From Phycisphaeraceae bacterium (GTDB taxonomy: Bacteria > Planctomycetota > Phycisphaerae > Phycisphaerales > Phycisphaeraceae): 64,000 nucleotides of DNA. The notes under the pieces are model-generated. The model had not been told where the DNA came from and did no database searches. It saw only the letters and a program-made list of their open reading frames with translations. Location: the NCBI GenBank assembly GCA_028277745.1, contig JANQFR010000014.1, positions 1 through 64,000 on the forward strand, read 5' to 3'. Position 1 is the first letter of the stretch; the number at the start of each line of letters is the position of its first letter. Below are positions 4,099-47,643 of this stretch, one piece after another. The position numbers and the translations under genes are program-made.

Positions 4099-6009
4099 TT
4101 ACTGATCGATCAGGTCCTTGCGTTGCCAGACGCGGATGTAGTCGATCACGAAGTCGGCGGGGAGTTGCGAGTCGTCGAGCGCATTGTTGTCCCAGCCGCC
4201 GCTGACCATGTAGAGGATCGGGTAGGACGGCACGCTGCAGACCCGCTCGTGCTCCCAGCGGGCGACCTCGTTGCCGTTGACGTAGTACACGACCTTGCCG
4301 GGCAGCCAAAGCATGCCGGCGGTGATGAAGCCCTCGGCATCGTGCGCGGTGTAAATGGCGGTGGAGCCGGTGGCTTTGTGGTTCTTGTCGTAACCGTCCC
4401 AGTGGAAAGCGATATTGAAGCGGTGAGGCCCCCAGCGGGTGAGGTGCTCCATGATGTCGAATTCCATCCCGCCGAACTCGGTCATGCTGCGTTTCCACCG
4501 CGGCCAGTCTTCGTTGCCGCGGTCGGGCATGGTCCAGAACGCGGGCCAGAGGCCGGGGACTTCGGGCAGCTTCATGCGGGCCTCAAAGTAGCCGTAGGTC
4601 TGGGCGAACTTGTCGTAGGTGTCAAGGTAGCCGACGGCGTAGTCGGTCTGGTTCTTGCCGGTCTTGGGGTGCTTCTGATTGGGGTCGTCGTTGATGTAGC
4701 CGGTCTTCTTTTCGTAGCGTAGGATGGCCTTGCCGTCCTCGAGCAGGACGTTGTCGCGGGAGAAGTGGCTGCGGCGGTCCCAGTAGTTGGCGGTGTGGAT
4801 GTTCCAGCGGTCGAGGTCGATGCTGCCGCTATCAAACTCGTCCTCGAAGGTGACCACCCAATCGCCCTCGACCGGGGGCCGCTTGCCGAGCCAGTCGGGG
4901 GTTTCGGCGGGCGGGGCGGTGGCTTTGATCTGGTCAATGCGGAGTTTGCCGCCGCTTTCTTTCAACTTAAGGTCGACGGCCGAGATCCGGTCGCTCAGGA
5001 CGCGGTTGCCGCTTCCGGGCTGACCCTTCAGATGGCCCTTGCGGAGTTCGGTGGGCCCGATCCACGGCTTGCCGGTGCTGAAGGGGGCGATCAGCGTGGC
5101 CGAGGCGCCCGGGGCGATCGGCTGGTCCGCGGCGCCGGCGGGCGACGAGTCGCGGCCGCTGAACACCCGGGCGACCGGCGTGACCGGGGCGTCGCCGGTG
5201 TTGGTGACCGTGACTTCGACCTGCAACGCGTCGGTGAGTCGCCACTTGCCCACGGCCGGCTTGACCCTGGCGTGCGCGCCCGCCTCACGGAACGCGACCT
5301 CGACGCCGGCCGGGGTCACAGACGCGTCGCTCTGTTTCGTCACAAAGGCGAGGTCTTTCTCGGCATTGACGCTTTCGCCGAGCATGATGCCGTCCTTCGG
5401 CGTGACGCGGACGTTCTCCGGTTTGACCGGCGGCTTTTCACCGGCCGGGCCGCCCGCGGTGATCGCGTTGACCCGGAGCCGGACCGGCTGCTTGGCCTTG
5501 CCGGTGAACAGCAGCACCTGTGAAACCTTGCTCGGGTCGAGCTTGTAGCTGGGCTTGTAGCCGTAGGCATGGCCAAAGATGACCTTGATCCGCCTGGTCT
5601 CGCCGGGCTTGATGGTGCGGGCCTCGGTGTTCCACGGGCTCTTCTTCCAGTCGCCGCGGTTGTCGACGCGGAGTTGGAGGCGGACCGGCTTGTCGCCGGT
5701 GTTGGTGACCTCGGCGATGACGTGCCCGAAGCGGGACAGGTCCCACGCGTCGCCGGAGCCGGGGAGGATCGCGACGCCGGGATAACCGTCACCGCCGGGC
5801 TCGATATTGAAAAACAAAGCCGTGTCGATCCCGCTTTGGCCGGGTTTGGCGGAGACCTGATCCGAACTGGGCTTGAGTTTCACGCCGCCGTCGGAGAGGT
5901 CGAGCAACTGCAACGTCTCGGCCTCGGAATCGTTTGCCTGGGCGTGGGCCAAACCGGCCGGTGTGAGCAAGGCCGCCAGATAAAGGACGGAAATCAAACG
6001 AACGAGCAT
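4099..6009 (-). CDS. secreted GH16 family glycoside hydrolase (module A)
   Basis: The start is at the ATG at 6009, preceded by AGGAG; it opens with signal peptide MLVRLISVLYLAALLTPAGL ending at AHA. The protein has 636 residues. Residues about 30-185 resemble a beta-sandwich carbohydrate-binding domain and about 200-310 a CARDB-like module. The GH16 domain runs from about 385 to the end. The catalytic EFDIME motif gives E516 as nucleophile, D518 as helper and E521 as acid/base. WPAFWTMPD and the final DYIRVWQ strand are typical of the agarase, porphyranase and carrageenase branch. It is the last gene of module A, behind a LacI-prepilin fusion and a PEP-CTERM protein on the same strand. The likely substrate is an algal galactan, but GH16 also includes laminarinases. 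Confidence 0.9.
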   Translation of the reverse strand: MLVRLISVLYLAALLTPAGLAHAQANDSEAETLQLLDLSDGGVKLKPSSDQVSAKPGQSGIDTALFFNIEPGGDGYPGVAILPGSGDAWDLSRFGHVIAEVTNTGDKPVRLQLRVDNRGDWKKSPWNTEARTIKPGETRRIKVIFGHAYGYKPSYKLDPSKVSQVLLFTGKAKQPVRLRVNAITAGGPAGEKPPVKPENVRVTPKDGIMLGESVNAEKDLAFVTKQSDASVTPAGVEVAFREAGAHARVKPAVGKWRLTDALQVEVTVTNTGDAPVTPVARVFSGRDSSPAGAADQPIAPGASATLIAPFSTGKPWIGPTELRKGHLKGQPGSGNRVLSDRISAVDLKLKESGGKLRIDQIKATAPPAETPDWLGKRPPVEGDWVVTFEDEFDSGSIDLDRWNIHTANYWDRRSHFSRDNVLLEDGKAILRYEKKTGYINDDPNQKHPKTGKNQTDYAVGYLDTYDKFAQTYGYFEARMKLPEVPGLWPAFWTMPDRGNEDWPRWKRSMTEFGGMEFDIMEHLTRWGPHRFNIAFHWDGYDKNHKATGSTAIYTAHDAEGFITAGMLWLPGKVVYYVNGNEVARWEHERVCSVPSYPILYMVSGGWDNNALDDSQLPADFVIDYIRVWQRKDLIDQ

Positions 6010-6150
6010 GCGGGAACTCCTATGGCGAATCAGATCTACTGCCTGAATCAATACGTTCGAGAAACGGCCCTTGGTCACGGCAGACCTCGGCGTATCCGGC
6101 GAAACCACGTTCGGCGGCGACCGAAGGCGGCGCCCCTGACCATCAGCCGC

Positions 6151-6981
6151 TCAACGACCCGACGTTGAGGGTCTGCTCGAGTATGAGCGGCGTTGGCGGC
6201 CGATCAGGAACAGGGCGCCCGCTGAGGCGAGGATCAGCGACCCCGGCTCGGGCACGACCGAGATCCGCACGAACTCGCCGTCGATATCGGTGACTTGCAG
6301 CCCCAGGCCGGTGTTATCGATGATCTCGTCGTCGATCTGGTTCTGGGCGTTGGCGACCGTGGTCTTCAGCTCCAGGACGGCGGACTCGTGGTCGAATCGC
6401 ACAAAACCGTCATTATTCGAGCTGAACGCCGTGCTCGCATCGATGCGGACGGTGATGTCGTTGAGCCGGAGCTGAGGCGAGCTGAAACCGTCGATGGCCC
6501 GGTCGATGAGCAGCAGCCCCCCGCCGGAGACGCTCGCGTTGCGGTTCCGGGCGTAATAACTGTTGAAAAGCTCCAGCGTGTTGCCCGACTCGATAACCCA
6601 GTTCCCCGTGTTGCTGTTGTTGCGGAGCTCAAAACGATCGAGGCGATTGACGCCGGCGCCTGTGCTGAAGATGTTGTGCAGGTCGTCGAAGTCACTGCCG
6701 TTGACATCGATGGTCCAGCCCACGGTTTCGAACCGGATGCCGTTGACTTTGCGTCCGTTGGGCACGGTGACCGTGCCAGGCGTCGTTGTTGCGTCGAACA
6801 CGGCGGTGTCGCGGAAATCGTCGTTCGAGGGCGGGGAGCCGCCCACCCAGTTTGCGCCGTCCGTCCACAAGCCGTTGCCCTCCGAACCGTCCCAGACCAC
6901 AAGGGCGGCGTGGCTCGAAAGCGTGAAGAGACCGAGCGCGGCAGTGCTGACGACGGCAGCGGCGATTCGTGTGCGATTCAT
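6151..6981 (-). CDS. PEP-CTERM sorting domain protein (module A)
   Basis: The start at ATG 6981 has GGAGG just upstream; the open frame extends 27 codons further but without coding character. The signal peptide is MNRTRIAAAVVSTAALGLFT with cleavage near SHA. The mature part begins with a motif seen in secreted beta-helix proteins (WDGSEGNGLWTDGANWVGG). The C-terminus VPEPGSLILASAGALFLIGR plus Arg residues is a canonical PEP-CTERM signal, processed by an exosortase that attaches or releases the protein at the cell surface. Total 276 residues. It lies between the LacI-prepilin fusion and the GH16 gene. A perfect 7-bp inverted repeat (6150-6156 with 6163-6169) overlaps its stop codon. Unlike the other three PEP-CTERM proteins in the window it does not share their Y-D-I-Y-like midsection. 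Confidence 0.88.
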   Translation of the reverse strand: MNRTRIAAAVVSTAALGLFTLSSHAALVVWDGSEGNGLWTDGANWVGGSPPSNDDFRDTAVFDATTTPGTVTVPNGRKVNGIRFETVGWTIDVNGSDFDDLHNIFSTGAGVNRLDRFELRNNSNTGNWVIESGNTLELFNSYYARNRNASVSGGGLLLIDRAIDGFSSPQLRLNDITVRIDASTAFSSNNDGFVRFDHESAVLELKTTVANAQNQIDDEIIDNTGLGLQVTDIDGEFVRISVVPEPGSLILASAGALFLIGRQRRSYSSRPSTSGR

Positions 6982-7058
6982 GAGGCTTCCTCCAGGTAAC
7001 AAGGATTCGATCGGATTATTCGGTGATGCGGGCGGCAACCCGCCCGCGGGGTTGAGGA

Positions 7059-8909
7059 TCAATACTGCTTATCCGCATGGATGTGCTTGTTCCGGATCGA
7101 GCCGATCGGCATCGTCTCGGCGTGGCCGTCGGCGAAAACGACGTTGGCTGCGGAGTCGCCGCCCTGCCGGTAGCGGATCGTTGCGGAAGCGGCGTTGATG
7201 TCGTCGTCGTTCTGGATCCTGACCTTGCCGTTGGGATTGGCGATCCCCGCGTACCAGGCGAAAATGCTGTTCGTCGAGCCGTTCACGGAGTGGGCGCGGT
7301 AGGCGACCGAGCCGTAGCCGCTGCCGGTGTTGCCCTGCTGCGCCCCGTCGAAGAGGACGCCCGTCTCGGTCGCGCGAAACACGCGATCAAAACTGCCGGT
7401 CCTGTAAGAGCTGGTCGGGTTGACCCTCGGCATCAACCTCGGGTGGGCCGAGTAATGCAGCCGCCCGCTTTTAATCGTGGCGTTGGGGTCTTTGAACACC
7501 GGGCTGAGGTCCAGGCCGCCGGAATACGTCCCCATGTTTTCCTGCTCGAGATAGCCGTTGACTTTCAGCGACCAGTCTGAGTTGCCGGTGGTGTATTCGC
7601 CCGGGGGGAAGTGCTGCTTGTAATCCGTTGCGTAGCCGCGGATGCCGAACATGATCGAGCGGTGGTTTGCGAGGCCCTGGATCGTGCGGGCGGTGCTGCG
7701 GGCGCCCTGAAGGGCCGGGAGCAACAGCGCGATCAGGAGTGCCACGATGCTGATCACCACCAGCAATTCCACGAGGGTGAAGCCGCCTCGCGTCCGGGTC
7801 TTGGACGCCTCCGCGGTCGACTCCCGGAGGGTCAGCGAGGGCGTGACCAAAGGCTCGGGCGAACGATCGAGGGGCTCGCCCAGACTCCCATCGAGCACGA
7901 TCTCCGCAGCCCGCCGGCCCATGTCCCCGAGCGGCTGGCGGACGGATGTGAGCATCGGGTCGACGTGCAGGCAGATTTCCGTGTCGTCGATGCCGATCAC
8001 GCTGACATCACCCGGCACGCTCAGGCCGAGGCGATTCATCTGGCGGATGACGCGGACCGCGACCTGGTCGTTGTAGCACACCAAGGCCGTGGGTGTGCGG
8101 TGTCTGCTCGGCGCAAACAAGCCCTCGATCGCCACGCCGACAGCCTCGAACCAACCCACGTCCGTCGGCATGTCGCAAGCAGGGTTGTCCAGGTCCCATA
8201 CCCAGGCCGGCTCGATGGGCAGGCCCGCCTCGCGCATCTGAGCTTCATAACCCTGACGACGGAGCGTCGCGCCGGGGCCGGGGTCCAGCTCACCCGCCCC
8301 GATGTAGGCGATGTCGCGATGGCCCGACTCGATGAGGTGTCGGGCGGCCATCGCGGATGCGGCCCGGTCGTCGAAGTTCACCCGGGGCAATTCCTCGACG
8401 GGTCCGTAATAGTTGACGGCGGTCACGTTGGGGTACTGCTCGATGAGCGGCCGCACCCAGTCGGATGCCGCGGGGACATGGAGCAAGACCAGGCCGTCGA
8501 TACGCCGCTCGGTGAATTTGTGCAAACAACTTTCAGGGCTGGACTTACCGCCGAGGTTGATGGCCAGCAAATCGTAGTTGCGGGCTTGACAGGCCCGCTC
8601 GATGCCGCGGAGGATCCGGCCCTCGTAATTGAAGCCCAGGCCGGCCCATTCGCGGGCGGGGACAAACACCCCCAGGGTCTCGGTCGACTTGCGGGCAAGG
8701 CTCCGGCTGGCGAAGTCCGGACGGTATCCCAACTGCTCGGCCGCCCTGAGGACACGCTGCCGCATCTCAGGGCTGACGCCGGTGTTGCCGCCCGCACGGT
8801 TGATCACCGTCGAGGCCACCGCGGTCGAGCACCGCGCAAGCCTGGAGACGTCGGCAAGGGTGATTCGGCGGTTCCTGATGGTCGATCGTGTCGTCAAGGA
8901 TTGATCCAA
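7059..8909 (-). CDS. LacI-family regulator fused to a prepilin-type protein (module A)
   Basis: One uninterrupted 616-codon frame, here given a TTG start at 8909 (the exact start is uncertain). Residues 16-70 are a LacI helix-turn-helix (ITLADVSRLARCSTAVASTV), and about 76-366 a periplasmic-binding-protein-like sensor with the usual GYEAQMREAGL, CYNDQVA and VIGIDDTEI segments, ending LTLREST-A. Where a solitary LacI would stop, the chain continues through a basic linker (KTRTRGG) into [20 protein letters not shown], a perfect type IV prepilin signal with cleavage after G376 and Glu at +5. A 240-residue globular part follows and ends with NVVFADGHAE, the H-X9-DG-type signature of planctomycete prepilin-like proteins (the His is absent). 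There is no good internal start for the prepilin part (nearest TTG at 7850). DNA binding and membrane export in one chain is contradictory unless the chain is processed. Confidence 0.9.
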   Translation of the reverse strand: MDQSLTTRSTIRNRRITLADVSRLARCSTAVASTVINRAGGNTGVSPEMRQRVLRAAEQLGYRPDFASRSLARKSTETLGVFVPAREWAGLGFNYEGRILRGIERACQARNYDLLAINLGGKSSPESCLHKFTERRIDGLVLLHVPAASDWVRPLIEQYPNVTAVNYYGPVEELPRVNFDDRAASAMAARHLIESGHRDIAYIGAGELDPGPGATLRRQGYEAQMREAGLPIEPAWVWDLDNPACDMPTDVGWFEAVGVAIEGLFAPSRHRTPTALVCYNDQVAVRVIRQMNRLGLSVPGDVSVIGIDDTEICLHVDPMLTSVRQPLGDMGRRAAEIVLDGSLGEPLDRSPEPLVTPSLTLRESTAEASKTRTRGGFTLVELLVVISIVALLIALLLPALQGARSTARTIQGLANHRSIMFGIRGYATDYKQHFPPGEYTTGNSDWSLKVNGYLEQENMGTYSGGLDLSPVFKDPNATIKSGRLHYSAHPRLMPRVNPTSSYRTGSFDRVFRATETGVLFDGAQQGNTGSGYGSVAYRAHSVNGSTNSIFAWYAGIANPNGKVRIQNDDDINAASATIRYRQGGDSAANVVFADGHAETMPIGSIRNKHIHADKQY

Positions 8910-8959
8910 AACTGGATACAGGTCGAGCGGACGGAGTATGAAGCATGAATAAATCAGCC

Positions 8960-8980
8960 AACTAAACGCTTAGTTTAGTT
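8960..8980. promoter_or_regulatory. candidate LacI operator upstream of the fusion gene
   Basis: CTAAACGCTTAG (8962-8973) is a CG-centred near-palindrome, the usual form of LacI/GalR operators, set in a longer AT-rich inverted repeat (AACTAAAC with GTTTAGTT, 8960-8980). It lies about 50 nt upstream of the proposed start at 8909, so autoregulation is likely. Its core AAACGCTT recurs at 38695, 45378 and 45454. Confidence 0.55.
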
Positions 8981-9231
8981 CATGTACGCGGAATGTCAAG
9001 CATCTTTCCGGACGTTTACAACCCATCTGTATCGCACTTGGCGCTCGCTCAGGCTTGCGGTCGAAGACGTAACGGTGACGACCGTCTCTCAGGGCCCTCC
9101 GCCATCATCTGAATTGGGTCGCCATCCGCTCCACCGGAGCCGTTCCTGGCCCCGATTACGTGATCCTAAAGCCTGCGATGACAAGAAGAAGCCTATCAGT
9201 GAGAATAATACTTCATTTATACGTCTTTTTA

Positions 9232-9259
9232 TTGACAATACATTAAAACAGTGTATTAT
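9232..9259 (+). promoter_or_regulatory. promoter with inverted repeat in the spacer (module B)
   Basis: TTGACA (9232-9237), a 16-nt spacer and TATTAT (9254-9259) form a strong sigma-70-like promoter, about 200 nt upstream of the PEP-CTERM gene at 9455. Inside it, AATACA (9237-9242) and TGTATT (9252-9257) form an inverted repeat that could be the operator of the GntR-type regulator encoded downstream. The rest of the 545-nt gap between 8909 and 9455 shows no gene. Confidence 0.55.
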
Positions 9260-9454
9260 GATCTGTGGTGTGAAACCCGGTGTCATTTTACCGACTCGCG
9301 AAGTTGCATTGAGAGTTCGATTCTTCCAAGGCCGGTTCTGGATCTATCACGAGGGGTGCAATCGTCACCGGTCCGGCCGCGAGCGTTGCGGGAGCCGTGC
9401 ACGCTGGCATTGGAAATCATTTCGAACGGACGCCGGGACAAGGAGAACATCGCC

Positions 9455-10234
9455 ATGAGAGTCGGGTCGCTGATCATCGCCTCAGTCCTATTCATGTCCG
9501 CCGCGTGGGCTGTGCAAGCGGATCGTATCGGCATCAATTTCTACGATGGCGCCGCCGCGACGCCCGCGACACTGGCGCCGACCGACACGGCCGGCCAGGC
9601 GGATGTCGCCCAAAGCAACTGGAACAACTTCACCATCACCAGCGATGACGCGAACGGTCAACACAACTCGGGCGTCCTGAGCGACCCTGTCGACCACGCC
9701 GGCAACACGGTGACGGGTATGACCATCACCGTGGATGCGGCGCCTGGCACGAAGGTGTGGCCCACCTTGGGCGCGGCCTGGGGTTTCACCGGCGCGGACC
9801 TGACGCTGCGACAGGGCCAATTCCACCCGCAGCCCCGCATCACCATCACGCATATCCCCTACGCCCGGTACGACATTTACATCTATGCAAACGCGGGGAA
9901 CCAGAACGGCGGCGGCAAGGCGACCCTCTCGGTCGCCGAGGGCGGCAGCGGCGTGGTCGATTTAATCGACACGTACTGGTACAACAACAAGTGGCAGAGT
10001 GGCAATTATGTCCAGGCCACGAACACCGATGGCGTCGACATCCCCGGCTCCAACTATATCCGCTGGACCGGCAATACAACCCGCGACATCACCATCGACT
10101 GGGACGGTAAGGTCGGCGGCGGCGGCTGGACGGGCACGACGGGCATCCAGATCGTCGACGTGGTCCCCGAGCCGACGACGGCGCTCGGATGGGTCGCCGC
10201 CGGACTGGTGTTCACAACCTGTCGACGCGGATAA
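9455..10234 (+). CDS. PEP-CTERM sorting domain protein (module B)
   Basis: The start at ATG 9455 has AAGGAG at 9440-9445; 259 residues. Signal peptide MRVGSLIIASVLFMSAAWAV is followed by a beta-sandwich-like secreted domain and the C-terminal sorting signal VVPEPTTALGWVAAGLVFTT plus CRRG. The midsection (YARYDIYIYANAGNQNGGG, with SNWNNFTIT earlier) resembles the PEP-CTERM protein of module C (AYDIYVYWGGGNSSRGG, GHWNN), so the two are probably paralogues. It is the first gene of module B, 24 nt ahead of the GntR-type regulator. The role is likely at the cell surface, perhaps glycan binding; this is inference from context. Confidence 0.88.
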   Translation: MRVGSLIIASVLFMSAAWAVQADRIGINFYDGAAATPATLAPTDTAGQADVAQSNWNNFTITSDDANGQHNSGVLSDPVDHAGNTVTGMTITVDAAPGTKVWPTLGAAWGFTGADLTLRQGQFHPQPRITITHIPYARYDIYIYANAGNQNGGGKATLSVAEGGSGVVDLIDTYWYNNKWQSGNYVQATNTDGVDIPGSNYIRWTGNTTRDITIDWDGKVGGGGWTGTTGIQIVDVVPEPTTALGWVAAGLVFTTCRRG

Positions 10235-10258
10235 TGCGGGAAGGAGCACCAACGCACC

Positions 10259-11314
10259 ATGGCCAAGTACGAAGACATCGCCCGTACCCTCAAGCAACGC
10301 ATCCGTCACGGCGATTATCGGTTGCGCGGTTTCCCGTCGCACGCGGGGCTCGTGGCCGAGTTGGGCGTCAATTCACGCACCGTGACCCGGGCGCTGTCGG
10401 CCCTGGTGAAGCAAGGGATGCTGGTGCGGCGCGAGACCGGCCGGTTCGACCTGCCGGCCGAACGCGCGACGCTGCACGTCGGCATGCTCGCCCCGGCTTA
10501 CCCCTCGCCCGAGATCGCCCGGTGGCACCAGCAGATCGACGAAGGCTGCGCCGGCCGGGGCTGGTCGTTCAAAGCCGTGCCGTACACCCACTGGGACGAC
10601 GCCGCGATCGTCGAAGCGATGCGGGGCCTGGACGGATTGTTCTTCCTGCCGACCGGCGACGACTTCCCCGAGGCGCTCCTGAATCAGATCAAAACCGCTG
10701 AAACGCCGGCCGTCCTGCTGGAAGAGGACGCCTCGTCGTATGGGATCCCGTGCCTGCGCTCCGCGAATCCCGCTTCCATCCAGCTGCTGATCGAACACCT
10801 GCGGGAGCAGGGCCATCGGCGGGTGGCGTGCCTCAACACCCAACCGCTGAACAACATCATCCGGGCCCGTATCGAAGCGTGGCACCTTTGGGCTTCAGCG
10901 CTGGGGATCGAAGGGCCGGTGATCAACGAACCGGTGAACCTTTTCAATTCCGCCACGAGACAGGCCCACACCGTGGTGGCCCGCCGGATCGAACAGGATG
11001 GCGGGCTGGACGCTACGGGCATCGTATGCACGACGGGCGCCGCGGCGGTCGGCGCGATGCGCGCCCTGACGGACGCGGGGCTGACCCCCGGCGAAGACGT
11101 GGCGGTCTGCAGCGCCGAGGACTGGGCCGGCGCGGCGCGCTACCTGACGCCTTCGCTGACCTGCCTCGAGTACGGCAGCATCCGACCGCTCGTGCAGGCG
11201 TGCCTGGACTACATCGAACGCGCCGGCCGCGAATGGCTGGGGCCGCTGCTGGTCGAACCGGCGGCCATGAAGCTTTATATCGGCGAATCCACGACAGGAC
11301 GCCGAGCCGAATGA
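10259..11314 (+). CDS. GntR/LacI-type sugar-responsive transcriptional regulator (module B)
   Basis: 351 residues from ATG 10259 with GGAAGGAG 12 nt upstream. Residues 1-68 are a GntR-type winged helix (YEDIARTLKQRIRHGDYRL; NSRTVTRALSALVKQGMLV). Residues about 72-345 are a LacI-like sensor domain (LHVGMLAPAYPSPEIARWHQ; HLREQGHRRVACLN), the architecture of the arabinose repressor AraR. The stop TGA (11312-11314) overlaps the ATG of the next gene in ATGA, so translation of regulator and prepilin-type protein is coupled. It probably controls the PEP-CTERM, prepilin and GH16 genes of module B through the inverted repeat at 9237-9257. Confidence 0.9.
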   Translation: MAKYEDIARTLKQRIRHGDYRLRGFPSHAGLVAELGVNSRTVTRALSALVKQGMLVRRETGRFDLPAERATLHVGMLAPAYPSPEIARWHQQIDEGCAGRGWSFKAVPYTHWDDAAIVEAMRGLDGLFFLPTGDDFPEALLNQIKTAETPAVLLEEDASSYGIPCLRSANPASIQLLIEHLREQGHRRVACLNTQPLNNIIRARIEAWHLWASALGIEGPVINEPVNLFNSATRQAHTVVARRIEQDGGLDATGIVCTTGAAAVGAMRALTDAGLTPGEDVAVCSAEDWAGAARYLTPSLTCLEYGSIRPLVQACLDYIERAGREWLGPLLVEPAAMKLYIGESTTGRRAE

Positions 11315-12117
11315 TGATCAACTCTCCTCTCCTCATCCTATCGGAGCGATTCAACATGTGCATCAAACGAACACATCACGGTTTCACACTCATTGAATTG
11401 CTTGTGGTCATTTCAATTATTGCTCTATTGATCGCCGTCCTCCTGCCCGCGCTGCAGAGCGCACGGGCGACAGCGCGATCGGCCATGTGCCTGAGCAACC
11501 AGCGGCAGTGGGGGATCTACTTCGCCGGGTATTTCGCCAACACCAGCCAGGCGTATCCGCTCTCGCATAGCCTGAACGCCGCGGGCGACGGCCTGCTCTC
11601 GCCCGACCATCCCGACGCCGATCTGTGGTACGAAGTGGTGTCGGGCGTCGACGACGCGAACCGGATCCCGGTCTGGTGCCCCGATGATCCCGACAAAAGC
11701 AAGGAGGGACAGGCCCGACCCGGCGGCAACATCAGTTACGGTTACAACAGCTCGCTGGCCGGATGGGACCACGGTGACTTTACGGACAATGCGCGGTTCT
11801 CCTGGATGGGTGATCATTACCGGTATGCGGCGACCATCGAAAGCCTGGGCAAGCCGAGCGAAACGCTGGTCGTCACCGATCTCGCGATCAACGCCACCTT
11901 CGACTCGTGGTTCAGCATGAATCGCGCTTACCATGAACCAACAAACGGCCGCATCGCTGCCCGGCACGTCGGCGACGTCAACAACGCCCTGTTCGCGGAT
12001 GGACACGCCGAGGGCAAGGCGGCGCCGGCGTCGGACAATTGGTGGACCCGGCCTTACCCGGAAGGCTACGGCGCCCCCTGGACCTCGGGCCGGCCATCGG
12101 TTTTCGATCGAAGATGA
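11311..12117 (+). CDS. prepilin-type protein with FADGHA signature (module B)
   Basis: The first ATG (11311) overlaps the regulator stop; a second ATG at 11356, preceded by GGAG, gives the more usual short leader MCIKRTHHG. The prepilin signal [20 protein letters not shown] is cleaved after Gly, with Glu at +5 and one membrane helix. The globular part is about 230 residues and ends with RHVGDVNNALFADGHAEG, the H-X9-DG-like motif of planctomycete prepilin-type proteins. Such proteins resemble type II secretion pseudopilins, but no assembly ATPase, platform protein or prepilin peptidase lies nearby. Function unknown; it recurs four times here, always beside a sugar-type regulator. Confidence 0.88.
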   Translation: MMINSPLLILSERFNMCIKRTHHGFTLIELLVVISIIALLIAVLLPALQSARATARSAMCLSNQRQWGIYFAGYFANTSQAYPLSHSLNAAGDGLLSPDHPDADLWYEVVSGVDDANRIPVWCPDDPDKSKEGQARPGGNISYGYNSSLAGWDHGDFTDNARFSWMGDHYRYAATIESLGKPSETLVVTDLAINATFDSWFSMNRAYHEPTNGRIAARHVGDVNNALFADGHAEGKAAPASDNWWTRPYPEGYGAPWTSGRPSVFDRR

Positions 12118-12238
12118 ATGTAGCTGGCTGATGGCATGCGTAACCGACGGGCCCGTCGCCGAACCGCGGCATGGCCGCGATCACCACGGCGTTCTCCGTT
12201 GACGCCAACGCTCAACCCATGAGACCTATCCACACCTC

Positions 12239-13528
12239 ATGAGCCACCCGCTTCATTACCGATCGATCGTGATTTTTTTCATCGCCTCATCCGTCGCCGC
12301 CAGCAGCCGCGCGGCGTCCGACGAGGAATATCTCGACTTTAACTATGGTCAGTCGACCGGCGGTGATGAATGGGTTCAGGCGATTGAGGTGATCAGTCCG
12401 GCTTATCGCTCGACGGTCCGGGGCGAAGTCGCCGTGGCGATCCGGGCCCCGGGCATGAAAATGGCCAAGGCGTTGTGCTGGCGACAGCCCACCGAGGAGC
12501 ACCCCAGCCCATGGGGCCACGACGTCACCCTGGCGCCGGGGGAGATTCAACTCGACCCGAACGGGGAAGGTTCTTTTGTTTTCCCCGCGGACCGGTTCCC
12601 CCACGGCCCGGTCAACATCCGTATCCTGGCGCATGACGGCCAGGGCCGGCGCGACCTCTGTGAACTGCAGCTTTACAACGCGGTCGGCGTGAAGTGGAAC
12701 CAGGGCATCCCCGACAACGACCCGCCGGCGGCCGAGGGCATGAAACTGGTTTTCAGCGATGACTTCGACGGCGCGTTGTCGATTTCCAACGACGGCCGGG
12801 GGGCTCGATACAACGCCCACAAGCCGCGGTTCGGCGATTTCAGCGGCTGGCCTTTCAACGATGTGGACAGCGACCAGCCGCCCTTCGAGCAGGTCGACAC
12901 GTACCTGAGGATCAAGGCGCGTAAGGCTCCGGGCTCTAAAGGCAGCACCGGCCTTCTCGCCACCGTGGACATGGACGGCAACGGCTTCTGGGCCAAAGCG
13001 CCCTGCTACATCGAGGCCCGATTCACCGCCCAGTCCGCACCGGGAACCTGGCCCGCTTTCTGGACGATCACCGCGATCGACCGCGGCGTGCCCGGCGATG
13101 AGCTGGACATCGCCGAGTGTTACGGCGGGGTCGGGGCGGGAAACCCCAACCACCCGGGCTACTCGATCGTCAGCCACTTCTGGGGGCAGACCAACCCGGA
13201 CGGCTCGAAGAAAAAAGCGATCAGCGCCCGCGTCCCGATCATGGAGCTCGGCGGCAAGTCGTACTGGTCGACCACGTTCCACACCTACGCCGTCCGGGTC
13301 GGCATGGACGACACCGTCTACTACTTTGATGACATCGAGGTGCTGCGGCACCCAACCAACGACATCTCCGCCAGCAACCCGCACTGCATCCTGATCAACT
13401 ACGCCATCGGAGGCATCAGCCGCTGGCCGATCGACCTGGAACGTTATGGCGACGGCTCGGATATGTATGTCGACTACATCCGCGTCTACGAAGGCGAACG
13501 CCGTCCCGTCGTTGATACGGAACATTAA
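12239..13528 (+). CDS. secreted GH16 family glycoside hydrolase (module B)
   Basis: 429 residues from ATG 12239. Signal peptide about residues 5-26 (SIVIFFIASSVAASSRAAS). Residues about 45-150 form a beta-sandwich (NIRILAHDGQGRRDL) and about 165-425 the GH16 domain. Catalytic motif DELDIAE gives E288 nucleophile, D290 and E293 acid/base, in the compact form without the extra residue that marks some subfamilies; module A's enzyme has EFDIME with the same spacing. APGTWPAFWTITA and DYIRVYEG are family-typical strands. It stands 121 nt after the prepilin gene and is probably part of module B. The likely substrate is a beta-1,3- or beta-1,4-galactan or glucan; the sequence alone does not decide. 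Confidence 0.88.
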   Translation: MSHPLHYRSIVIFFIASSVAASSRAASDEEYLDFNYGQSTGGDEWVQAIEVISPAYRSTVRGEVAVAIRAPGMKMAKALCWRQPTEEHPSPWGHDVTLAPGEIQLDPNGEGSFVFPADRFPHGPVNIRILAHDGQGRRDLCELQLYNAVGVKWNQGIPDNDPPAAEGMKLVFSDDFDGALSISNDGRGARYNAHKPRFGDFSGWPFNDVDSDQPPFEQVDTYLRIKARKAPGSKGSTGLLATVDMDGNGFWAKAPCYIEARFTAQSAPGTWPAFWTITAIDRGVPGDELDIAECYGGVGAGNPNHPGYSIVSHFWGQTNPDGSKKKAISARVPIMELGGKSYWSTTFHTYAVRVGMDDTVYYFDDIEVLRHPTNDISASNPHCILINYAIGGISRWPIDLERYGDGSDMYVDYIRVYEGERRPVVDTEH

Positions 13529-46614: not shown

Positions 46615-47643
46615 GTGGCGTCGCTGCGTGACATTGCTGATGAAGTGGGCGTTTCGATTTCACTCGTATCGCGGGTGCTGAACAATCGCATGGGCTCGAC
46701 GGGCGTCCGTCCGGAATTGGCCGAACGCATCCGCGCCTCCGCGGCCGCGATGAACTACCTGCCCAACCCCGCAGCGGTCGCGCTCAGCGGCGGCCGGCAG
46801 AATGTCCTGGGCATCTTCATCCATCGCATAGGCATCGACGGCAGCGGCACGATTGAACGCACCATCGAAGGCGTCAGCCTCGCCGCCCGCGCCAACCATC
46901 AGCGCTTGCTCACCAGTTTTTATACGGACGACGATGACTTTCAGCAGCACGACCCCATCATCCGCAAGACATTTATGGACGGCCTGCTGCTGGTAGGCAT
47001 CCGGCACCCCGAACTGGTCAGCAAGCTGCTGAGCTACCGTGAGCGCGGACTGCCGATCGCCACCCTGCACGACGAGCCGATCCACGACGATCTGCCCAAC
47101 GCCGGGCTGGACCAGATCGCCATCGGCCGGCTGACCACGGAACACCTGATCGAGCGCGGCTGCCGACGCATCGTCTTCGCGTGCGTCCGAGGCATCGTCA
47201 TGGAACAACGCATCACCGGATACCGCAAGGCGCTCCGCCATGCCGGACTCGTGGACGACCCCGAACTGCTGCCCAAGGTGCGCGAACAAACAGACCAACT
47301 GCACGAGGAATACGGCCCTGAGTCCGGCCGGGCGTTGGTGGCCGGATTACTGGAGCGCGGCGTCACTTTCGACGGGGTGATCGCGCAGTCGGACGCGCAG
47401 GCCATCGGCGTCATCAACGAACTGGCCGCCCGCCGGATCGACGTGCCCGGCCAGGTCCGCGTGATCGGCATGGACAATTCCCCCCATTGCCTGCTCGCGC
47501 GTGTTCCGCTCAGTTCCATCTCCGGCCAACTCCGCGAACGCGCTTCCACGGCGATACACATGCTGCTCCAACTGATCCGCGGCGAAGCAGCGGCTTCGGT
47601 CAACCTTCAACCGCGTCTGATTGCCCGGGAATCCACCGCCTGA
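46615..47643 (+). CDS. LacI family transcriptional regulator (module C)
   Basis: 342 residues with a GTG start at 46615 and AAGGAG 9 nt before it. Helix-turn-helix SLRDIADEVGVSISLVSRVL at residues 3-22, hinge-like VRPELAERIRASAAAMNYLP, then a sugar-binding sensor (IERGCRRIVFACVRGIVMEQ; DGVIAQSDAQAIGVINELAA; VRVIGMDNSPHCLLARVPLS). It ends RLIARESTA, exactly the point after which the module A regulator runs on into a prepilin. It probably binds the CAAGCGTTTG sites at 45378, 45454 and 38695 and is relieved by a sugar from the lyase substrate. Confidence 0.93.
   Translation: MASLRDIADEVGVSISLVSRVLNNRMGSTGVRPELAERIRASAAAMNYLPNPAAVALSGGRQNVLGIFIHRIGIDGSGTIERTIEGVSLAARANHQRLLTSFYTDDDDFQQHDPIIRKTFMDGLLLVGIRHPELVSKLLSYRERGLPIATLHDEPIHDDLPNAGLDQIAIGRLTTEHLIERGCRRIVFACVRGIVMEQRITGYRKALRHAGLVDDPELLPKVREQTDQLHEEYGPESGRALVAGLLERGVTFDGVIAQSDAQAIGVINELAARRIDVPGQVRVIGMDNSPHCLLARVPLSSISGQLRERASTAIHMLLQLIRGEAAASVNLQPRLIARESTA

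Follow-up and report, generated by a model that had tools for sequence, protein, structure and literature searches.

A gene of a Phycisphaeraceae bacterium encodes a LacI repressor and a type IV-type prepilin in a single polypeptide, and this fusion gene is genuine. It occupies positions 7059-8909 of the window (the whole stretch of DNA analysed, 64,000 nucleotides), as an earlier note had it; those coordinates stand, with the ORF to be placed on the minus strand, the plus strand of the same interval being interrupted by a stop. From a TTG start at 8909 (a TTG at 8897 is also possible) to the stop at 7059-7061, the frame runs through 616 codons without an internal stop, and each half of the product has Pfam matches; the claim of that note, regulator and prepilin in one chain, is borne out. 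The frame is more than a chance opening, because each half shows homology to known families and because codon position 2 is the least divergent position in both when relatives are compared.

The N-terminal half has the two parts that define a LacI/GalR repressor. A LacI helix-turn-helix (PF00356; residues 17-65, 8715-8861 on the minus strand) scores 32.7 bits in Pfam, where the cut-off is 27, and a LacI-type sugar-sensor domain (PF13377, Peripla_BP_3; residues 189-365, 7815-8345 on the minus strand) scores 124.7 bits and is modelled with high pLDDT; the LacI core as a whole covers about residues 17-366. This half is complete: the alignment of solved full-length CcpA and PurR covers residues 10-366, where both of those proteins stop. 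The C-terminal half opens with a class III signal, G|FxxxE followed by a hydrophobic helix, and both PF07963 and TIGR02532 are above cut-off; the N_methyl match covers residues 372-397 with 25.6 bits (Pfam cut-off 21.2). From these matches prepilin peptidase is predicted to cut between G376 and F377 (7781-7784, minus strand). The pilin part that follows (residues 377-616; 7062-7781, minus strand) consists of an N-terminal transmembrane helix, a head and a C-terminal ANVVFADGHA motif. Its score for DUF1559 (PF07596) is 18.4 bits against a Pfam cut-off of 23.3, and it is filed as a prepilin, not as a member of PF07596.

Structure prediction agrees with this division. When the whole chain is modelled by AlphaFold (pLDDT 80, pTM 0.57), the LacI part is confident, a helix spans residues 379-429, and pLDDT falls below 50 at residues 373-377. 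The pilin half modelled alone (pLDDT 83, pTM 0.82) forms a long N-terminal helix and a head, the form expected of a type IV-type prepilin. All 11 PDB entries that VIA-align listed for it are type IV pilins, with PilA4 of Thermus the best (Z 5.8), followed by PAK pilin (4.0) and gonococcal pilin (3.8); Foldseek is weak here, with a best E of 0.23. The Z values are modest, and the model supports a pilin fold, backing it but not proving it. Sequence and model together give a DNA-binding part and an outer domain in one chain, set around a single transmembrane helix whose topology is predicted.

The junction itself suggests how the two parts came to be joined. Separate tandem pairs in these genomes have a LacI ending in RxST (plus some residues), a stop, and a prepilin ATG that usually lies 5-21 codons before the glycine or alanine of the cleavage site. 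Here the chain reads through, as LREST-AEAS-KTRTRGG-FTLVE; the linker of 11 residues (366-376; 7782-7814, minus strand) is basic, has low pLDDT, and contains no in-frame stop and no ATG, GTG or TTG. At its upstream end lies a GGAGG (7808-7812, minus strand), which the earlier note suggested may be the old ribosome-binding site of the prepilin, and probably rightly: its pairing with the anti-Shine-Dalgarno sequence, -9.5 kcal/mol, is the strongest, tied with one other, when some 28 prepilin starts of this genome are compared, and pairing as good is found at 1.2% of window positions. Five nucleotides after it comes AAG (K370; 7800-7802, minus strand), one base from ATG. From the spacing and the leader length we infer that this codon was once the ATG of the prepilin; the putative old leader, MTRTRGG|F, would have had 7 residues, a normal length. 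With GGAGG-N5-AAG standing where separate pairs have their start, the proposed origin by loss of both the LacI stop and the prepilin start is well supported. A second LacI of the window (46615-47643, 'module C' in the earlier note) ends IARESTA*, so it was correctly described as stopping at the RESTA point; the closest LacI paralog is another one, on contig C87 of the same genome (53%), which ends VIRESTGPAPA*.

The partners of this fusion are commonly found side by side. The genome has matches to 66 LacI and 133 prepilin genes, and this is the only LacI-prepilin fusion seen among them; 11 LacIs have a prepilin directly downstream on the same strand, against 0.5 expected, and 32 have one no more than 2.6 kb away on that side and strand, against 1.5 expected. 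Equal distances upstream or on the other strand hold 5, 1 and 6 such neighbours. A profile of the junction was run over 400 genomes from the order and 392 from the phylum, with a deeper search of 51 genomes from the family. Among the matches listed for those 51 there are about 100 in-frame LacI-to-prepilin joins, nearly all with at least one stop, and in many a single in-frame stop separates the two; 4 complete joins (5 counting a broken one), or about 4-5%, are stop-free. Numerous long frames that had looked like fusions were rejected, being LacI, stop and prepilin in one frame, as were the extended N-terminal frames that precede prepilins in G003 and on C87 of this genome, which resemble GC-rich read-through and not domains.

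The same kind of fusion, for which the earlier note suggested looking in other Planctomycetota, does occur, in genomes G072, G011, G025 and G721. G072:C26 encodes 619 residues and keeps an ATG 12 codons before the glycine; G011:C42 encodes 616, with a linker that has TTG only and no ATG, and like the present gene leads into a PEP-CTERM gene; G011:C148 runs off the end of its contig and has an in-frame ATG 28 codons before the glycine; G025:C352 joins the prepilin without a stop, its LacI half being broken in the N-terminal half, as in a decaying fusion. In another family of the phylum, G721:C462 joins a GntR helix-turn-helix, a LacI-type sensor and a prepilin in 579 residues, with no start in the linker; a second prepilin gene comes after it. 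No fusion of this GntR type was listed in the 15 other genomes of that family, no orthologous fusion was found in a sister species of any, and a contig search with the whole fusion as query returned no relative. G011:C42 also has, after a GGGA string (-4.1 kcal/mol), an AAG 7 codons upstream of the glycine; it may be another case of ATG lost to AAG, though this could be chance.

The trees bear on whether these joins have one origin. In the LacI tree a clade with support 100/99 holds the present gene (contig C85), its C87 paralog, the fused G072:C26, the separate pair G122:C202, and G067:C500; placing the four fused LacIs takes four changes, of which the starred branches make at least three unavoidable. 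Three fused pilins had enough sequence for the pilin tree; they lie scattered over it, and here too three changes are forced. Taken singly, a tree with three changes might in theory be read as one gain and two losses; the two trees disagree, however, since C85 and G072:C26 have LacIs that share a clade and pilins that do not. This disagreement argues that the family's stop-free joins arose by independent fusion, at least three times. Together they look like a series, from separate genes, through loss of the stop with the ATG kept, to loss of both stop and start. As for long-term selection on the fusion itself, a stop-free rate of about 4-5% is one that drift could give.

The promoter region points to what the LacI half may control. 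An operator-like palindrome, AACTAAGCGTTTAGTT, lies at 8960-8975 on the minus strand, 51-66 bp upstream of the start codon, and there AACTAAACGCTTAGTT overlaps the -10 of a TTGACA-16-TAAACT sequence (8972-8999, minus strand), the only promoter-like match in 7000-9150. With up to two mismatches, the candidate operator has only three occurrences in the genome of 5.1 Mb: the present one, one (G000:C87:8671-8686) at the promoter of the C87 LacI paralog, which heads a LacI-GH16 operon, and one (G000:C76:6457-6472) 77 bp upstream of a third GH16 gene. A control pattern read backward also has 5 matches in the genome, so the weight of these sites is on their position, not on their count. Sites like it, read by eye, stand at the same place in G072:C26 and G122:C202, behind TTGACC-16-TATGAT/TATAAT; the predicted site is thus a promoter palindrome conserved at three loci of this genome and in relatives. 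The helix-turn-helix stretch CSTAVASTV is identical in the fused and the C87 LacI. Downstream in the apparent operon are a gene for a PEP-CTERM protein (6151-6981, minus strand; start chosen at the ATG of MNRTRIAAAV) and one for a GH16 glycoside hydrolase (4099-6108, minus strand), and at both C85 and C87 the downstream genes include one for GH16 and one for a protein of PEP-CTERM or similar exported type. Since the candidate operator lies at its own promoter and recurs before GH16 loci, the LacI half seems functional, and it would appear to be an active repressor of GH16 genes for polysaccharide degradation.

The promoter-overlapping palindrome appears to mark a small GH16 regulon, in which a lone GH16 gene stands beside two LacI operons. 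In a neighbouring module on the other strand (9251-13528, plus strand), the same kinds of parts occur as separate genes: a PEP-CTERM-like protein, a regulator with GntR and LacI-type sensor parts (10259-11314), a prepilin and a GH16 enzyme.

The reading we favour is that the repressor probably serves as the leader of the pilin. Prepilin helices insert with the N-terminus in and the C-terminus out; the LacI part is accordingly predicted to lie in the cytoplasm, next to the basic linker KTRTR, with the helix spanning the inner membrane and the pilin head on its outer side, which fits the topology that the earlier note implied. The gene would derive from a tandem LacI-to-prepilin pair. By binding the operator AACTAAACGNTTAGTT, its LacI would repress two other GH16 loci as well as the operon that encodes it (pilin, PEP-CTERM, GH16), and a sugar freed by the GH16 enzymes would lift that repression. 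The genome has one match to an A24 prepilin peptidase (contig C21:26510) against 133 to prepilins; this single peptidase would most likely cut G376|F377, with LacI as a giant leader peptide, and would free one soluble repressor per pilin, the equal amounts that the earlier note expected of such a cut, the repressor being held at the membrane until then. The sequences show the fusion, its intact domains, the conserved operator-like sites and the recurrence of such joins, whereas topology, repression, ligand, cleavage and benefit are what we infer; for the scheme from tandem pair to tethered insertion, repression of the GH16 loci and a cut that releases repressor and pilin, we see about an even chance. 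The bolder statement, that the repressor is a folded leader peptide, that peptidase activity releases one LacI per pilin, and that several lineages fused LacI- or GntR-type regulators to prepilins independently, is made tentatively. We know of no report of a prepilin peptidase removing a folded domain of about 376 residues.

The same chain might instead stay uncut, as a membrane-tethered repressor whose repression is tuned from outside by the pilin head or its state of assembly. Its order of parts is that of ToxR and CadC (PMC9214523), the model has a flexible basic linker joining two folded modules, and a bulky LacI dimer may hide the cut site; against this, the G-1/F+1/E+5 motif is fully kept and the peptidase is encoded, and a LacI dimer held in the membrane must reach three loci on different contigs. 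Cutting is rated above a lasting tether because G|FTLVE is fully kept though the leader around it has changed completely, and the uncut form seems unlikely to us. Drift offers a different account, in which one of many tandem pairs lost its stop neutrally, one half being used and the other decaying: a single stop is all that parts many in-frame pairs, the LacI half of G025:C352 is already broken, and vertical conservation of any one fusion was not found among the genomes searched. Yet in the present gene both halves are intact, the second half is predicted to fold as a pilin and the operator-like site is conserved, and the linker has no start codon here or in G721:C462 (TTG only in G011:C42). 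Because of that missing start, the pilin in these two genes depends on the fusion, and a neutral origin is improbable on balance.

Two further explanations would remove the fusion protein altogether. A separate prepilin could be made from an internal start, at TTG 7850, GTG 7898 or AAG 7802. A perfect GGAGG does precede the AAG by 5 nt, and relatives G072:C26 and G011:C148 keep an ATG; AAG, however, does not normally serve as a start codon, TTG 7850 has hardly any Shine-Dalgarno pairing (-1.8 kcal/mol), and GTG 7898 (-5.5 kcal/mol), inside LacI, would leave the prepilin with some 39 residues of LacI tail as its leader. Nothing in the sequence bears out the strong internal start that the earlier note named as a danger to its reading, and separate synthesis is very unlikely. 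Nor is there an in-frame stop in the linker for the other danger, a hidden stop. The genome is a draft in 99 contigs, where an error of sequencing or assembly might conceal one; but the 48-nt junction has no in-frame start codon, the +1 frame meets a TGA before the end of LREST, and the +2 frame has no stop, so that no single indel could turn the sequence back into two normal genes. Joins of this kind are moreover present in other genomes, and we give an error almost no credence.

By the classic 'Rosetta Stone' logic, two proteins that become joined again and again, independently, are likely to work together. Here the fusions connect sugar-responsive repressors to prepilin families that are very large and poorly understood in these bacteria, and they suggest that pilins take part in sensing or using polysaccharides. 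If the repressor is indeed a folded leader, control of polysaccharide-breakdown genes would be coupled to pilin processing. A cut chain would be a new way to make or release a transcription factor; an uncut one would be a LacI-type repressor tethered in the membrane. No model in the Pfam or NCBIfam scans matches the joint architecture, and no open-licence paper found on LacI with prepilins, DUF1559 with regulators or long prepilin leaders reports such a fusion.

Among known systems, the LacI/GalR repressors PurR, CcpA and RbsR share the helix-turn-helix and Peripla_BP_3 sensor of residues 10-366 and an operator like the 16-bp palindrome with central CG over the promoter; the fusion differs from them in its added C-terminal pilin of 240 residues with a transmembrane helix. 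The DUF1559-group type IV-type prepilins of the same genomes share the GFTLVELL N-terminus, the long helix, the pilin head and an ADGH-type C-terminus, but have leaders of about 6-22 residues, whereas here the leader is a 376-residue repressor. ToxR, CadC and other membrane-tethered one-component regulators with an N-terminal cytoplasmic DNA-binding part, one transmembrane helix and a C-terminal outer domain (PMC9214523), have the same layout; unlike them, the fusion has a LacI helix-turn-helix and a cytoplasmic sugar sensor in place of the CadC-type helix-turn-helix, a pilin as its outer part, and a protease site between the parts, neither half belonging to those families. The tandem LacI-to-prepilin and GntR-to-prepilin pairs of the same genomes have the same partners in the same order, often with PEP-CTERM and enzyme genes downstream, but make two chains, with stop and start codons between. 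Compared with all of these, the fusion is best described as a LacI repressor in membrane-tethered, possibly self-releasing form.
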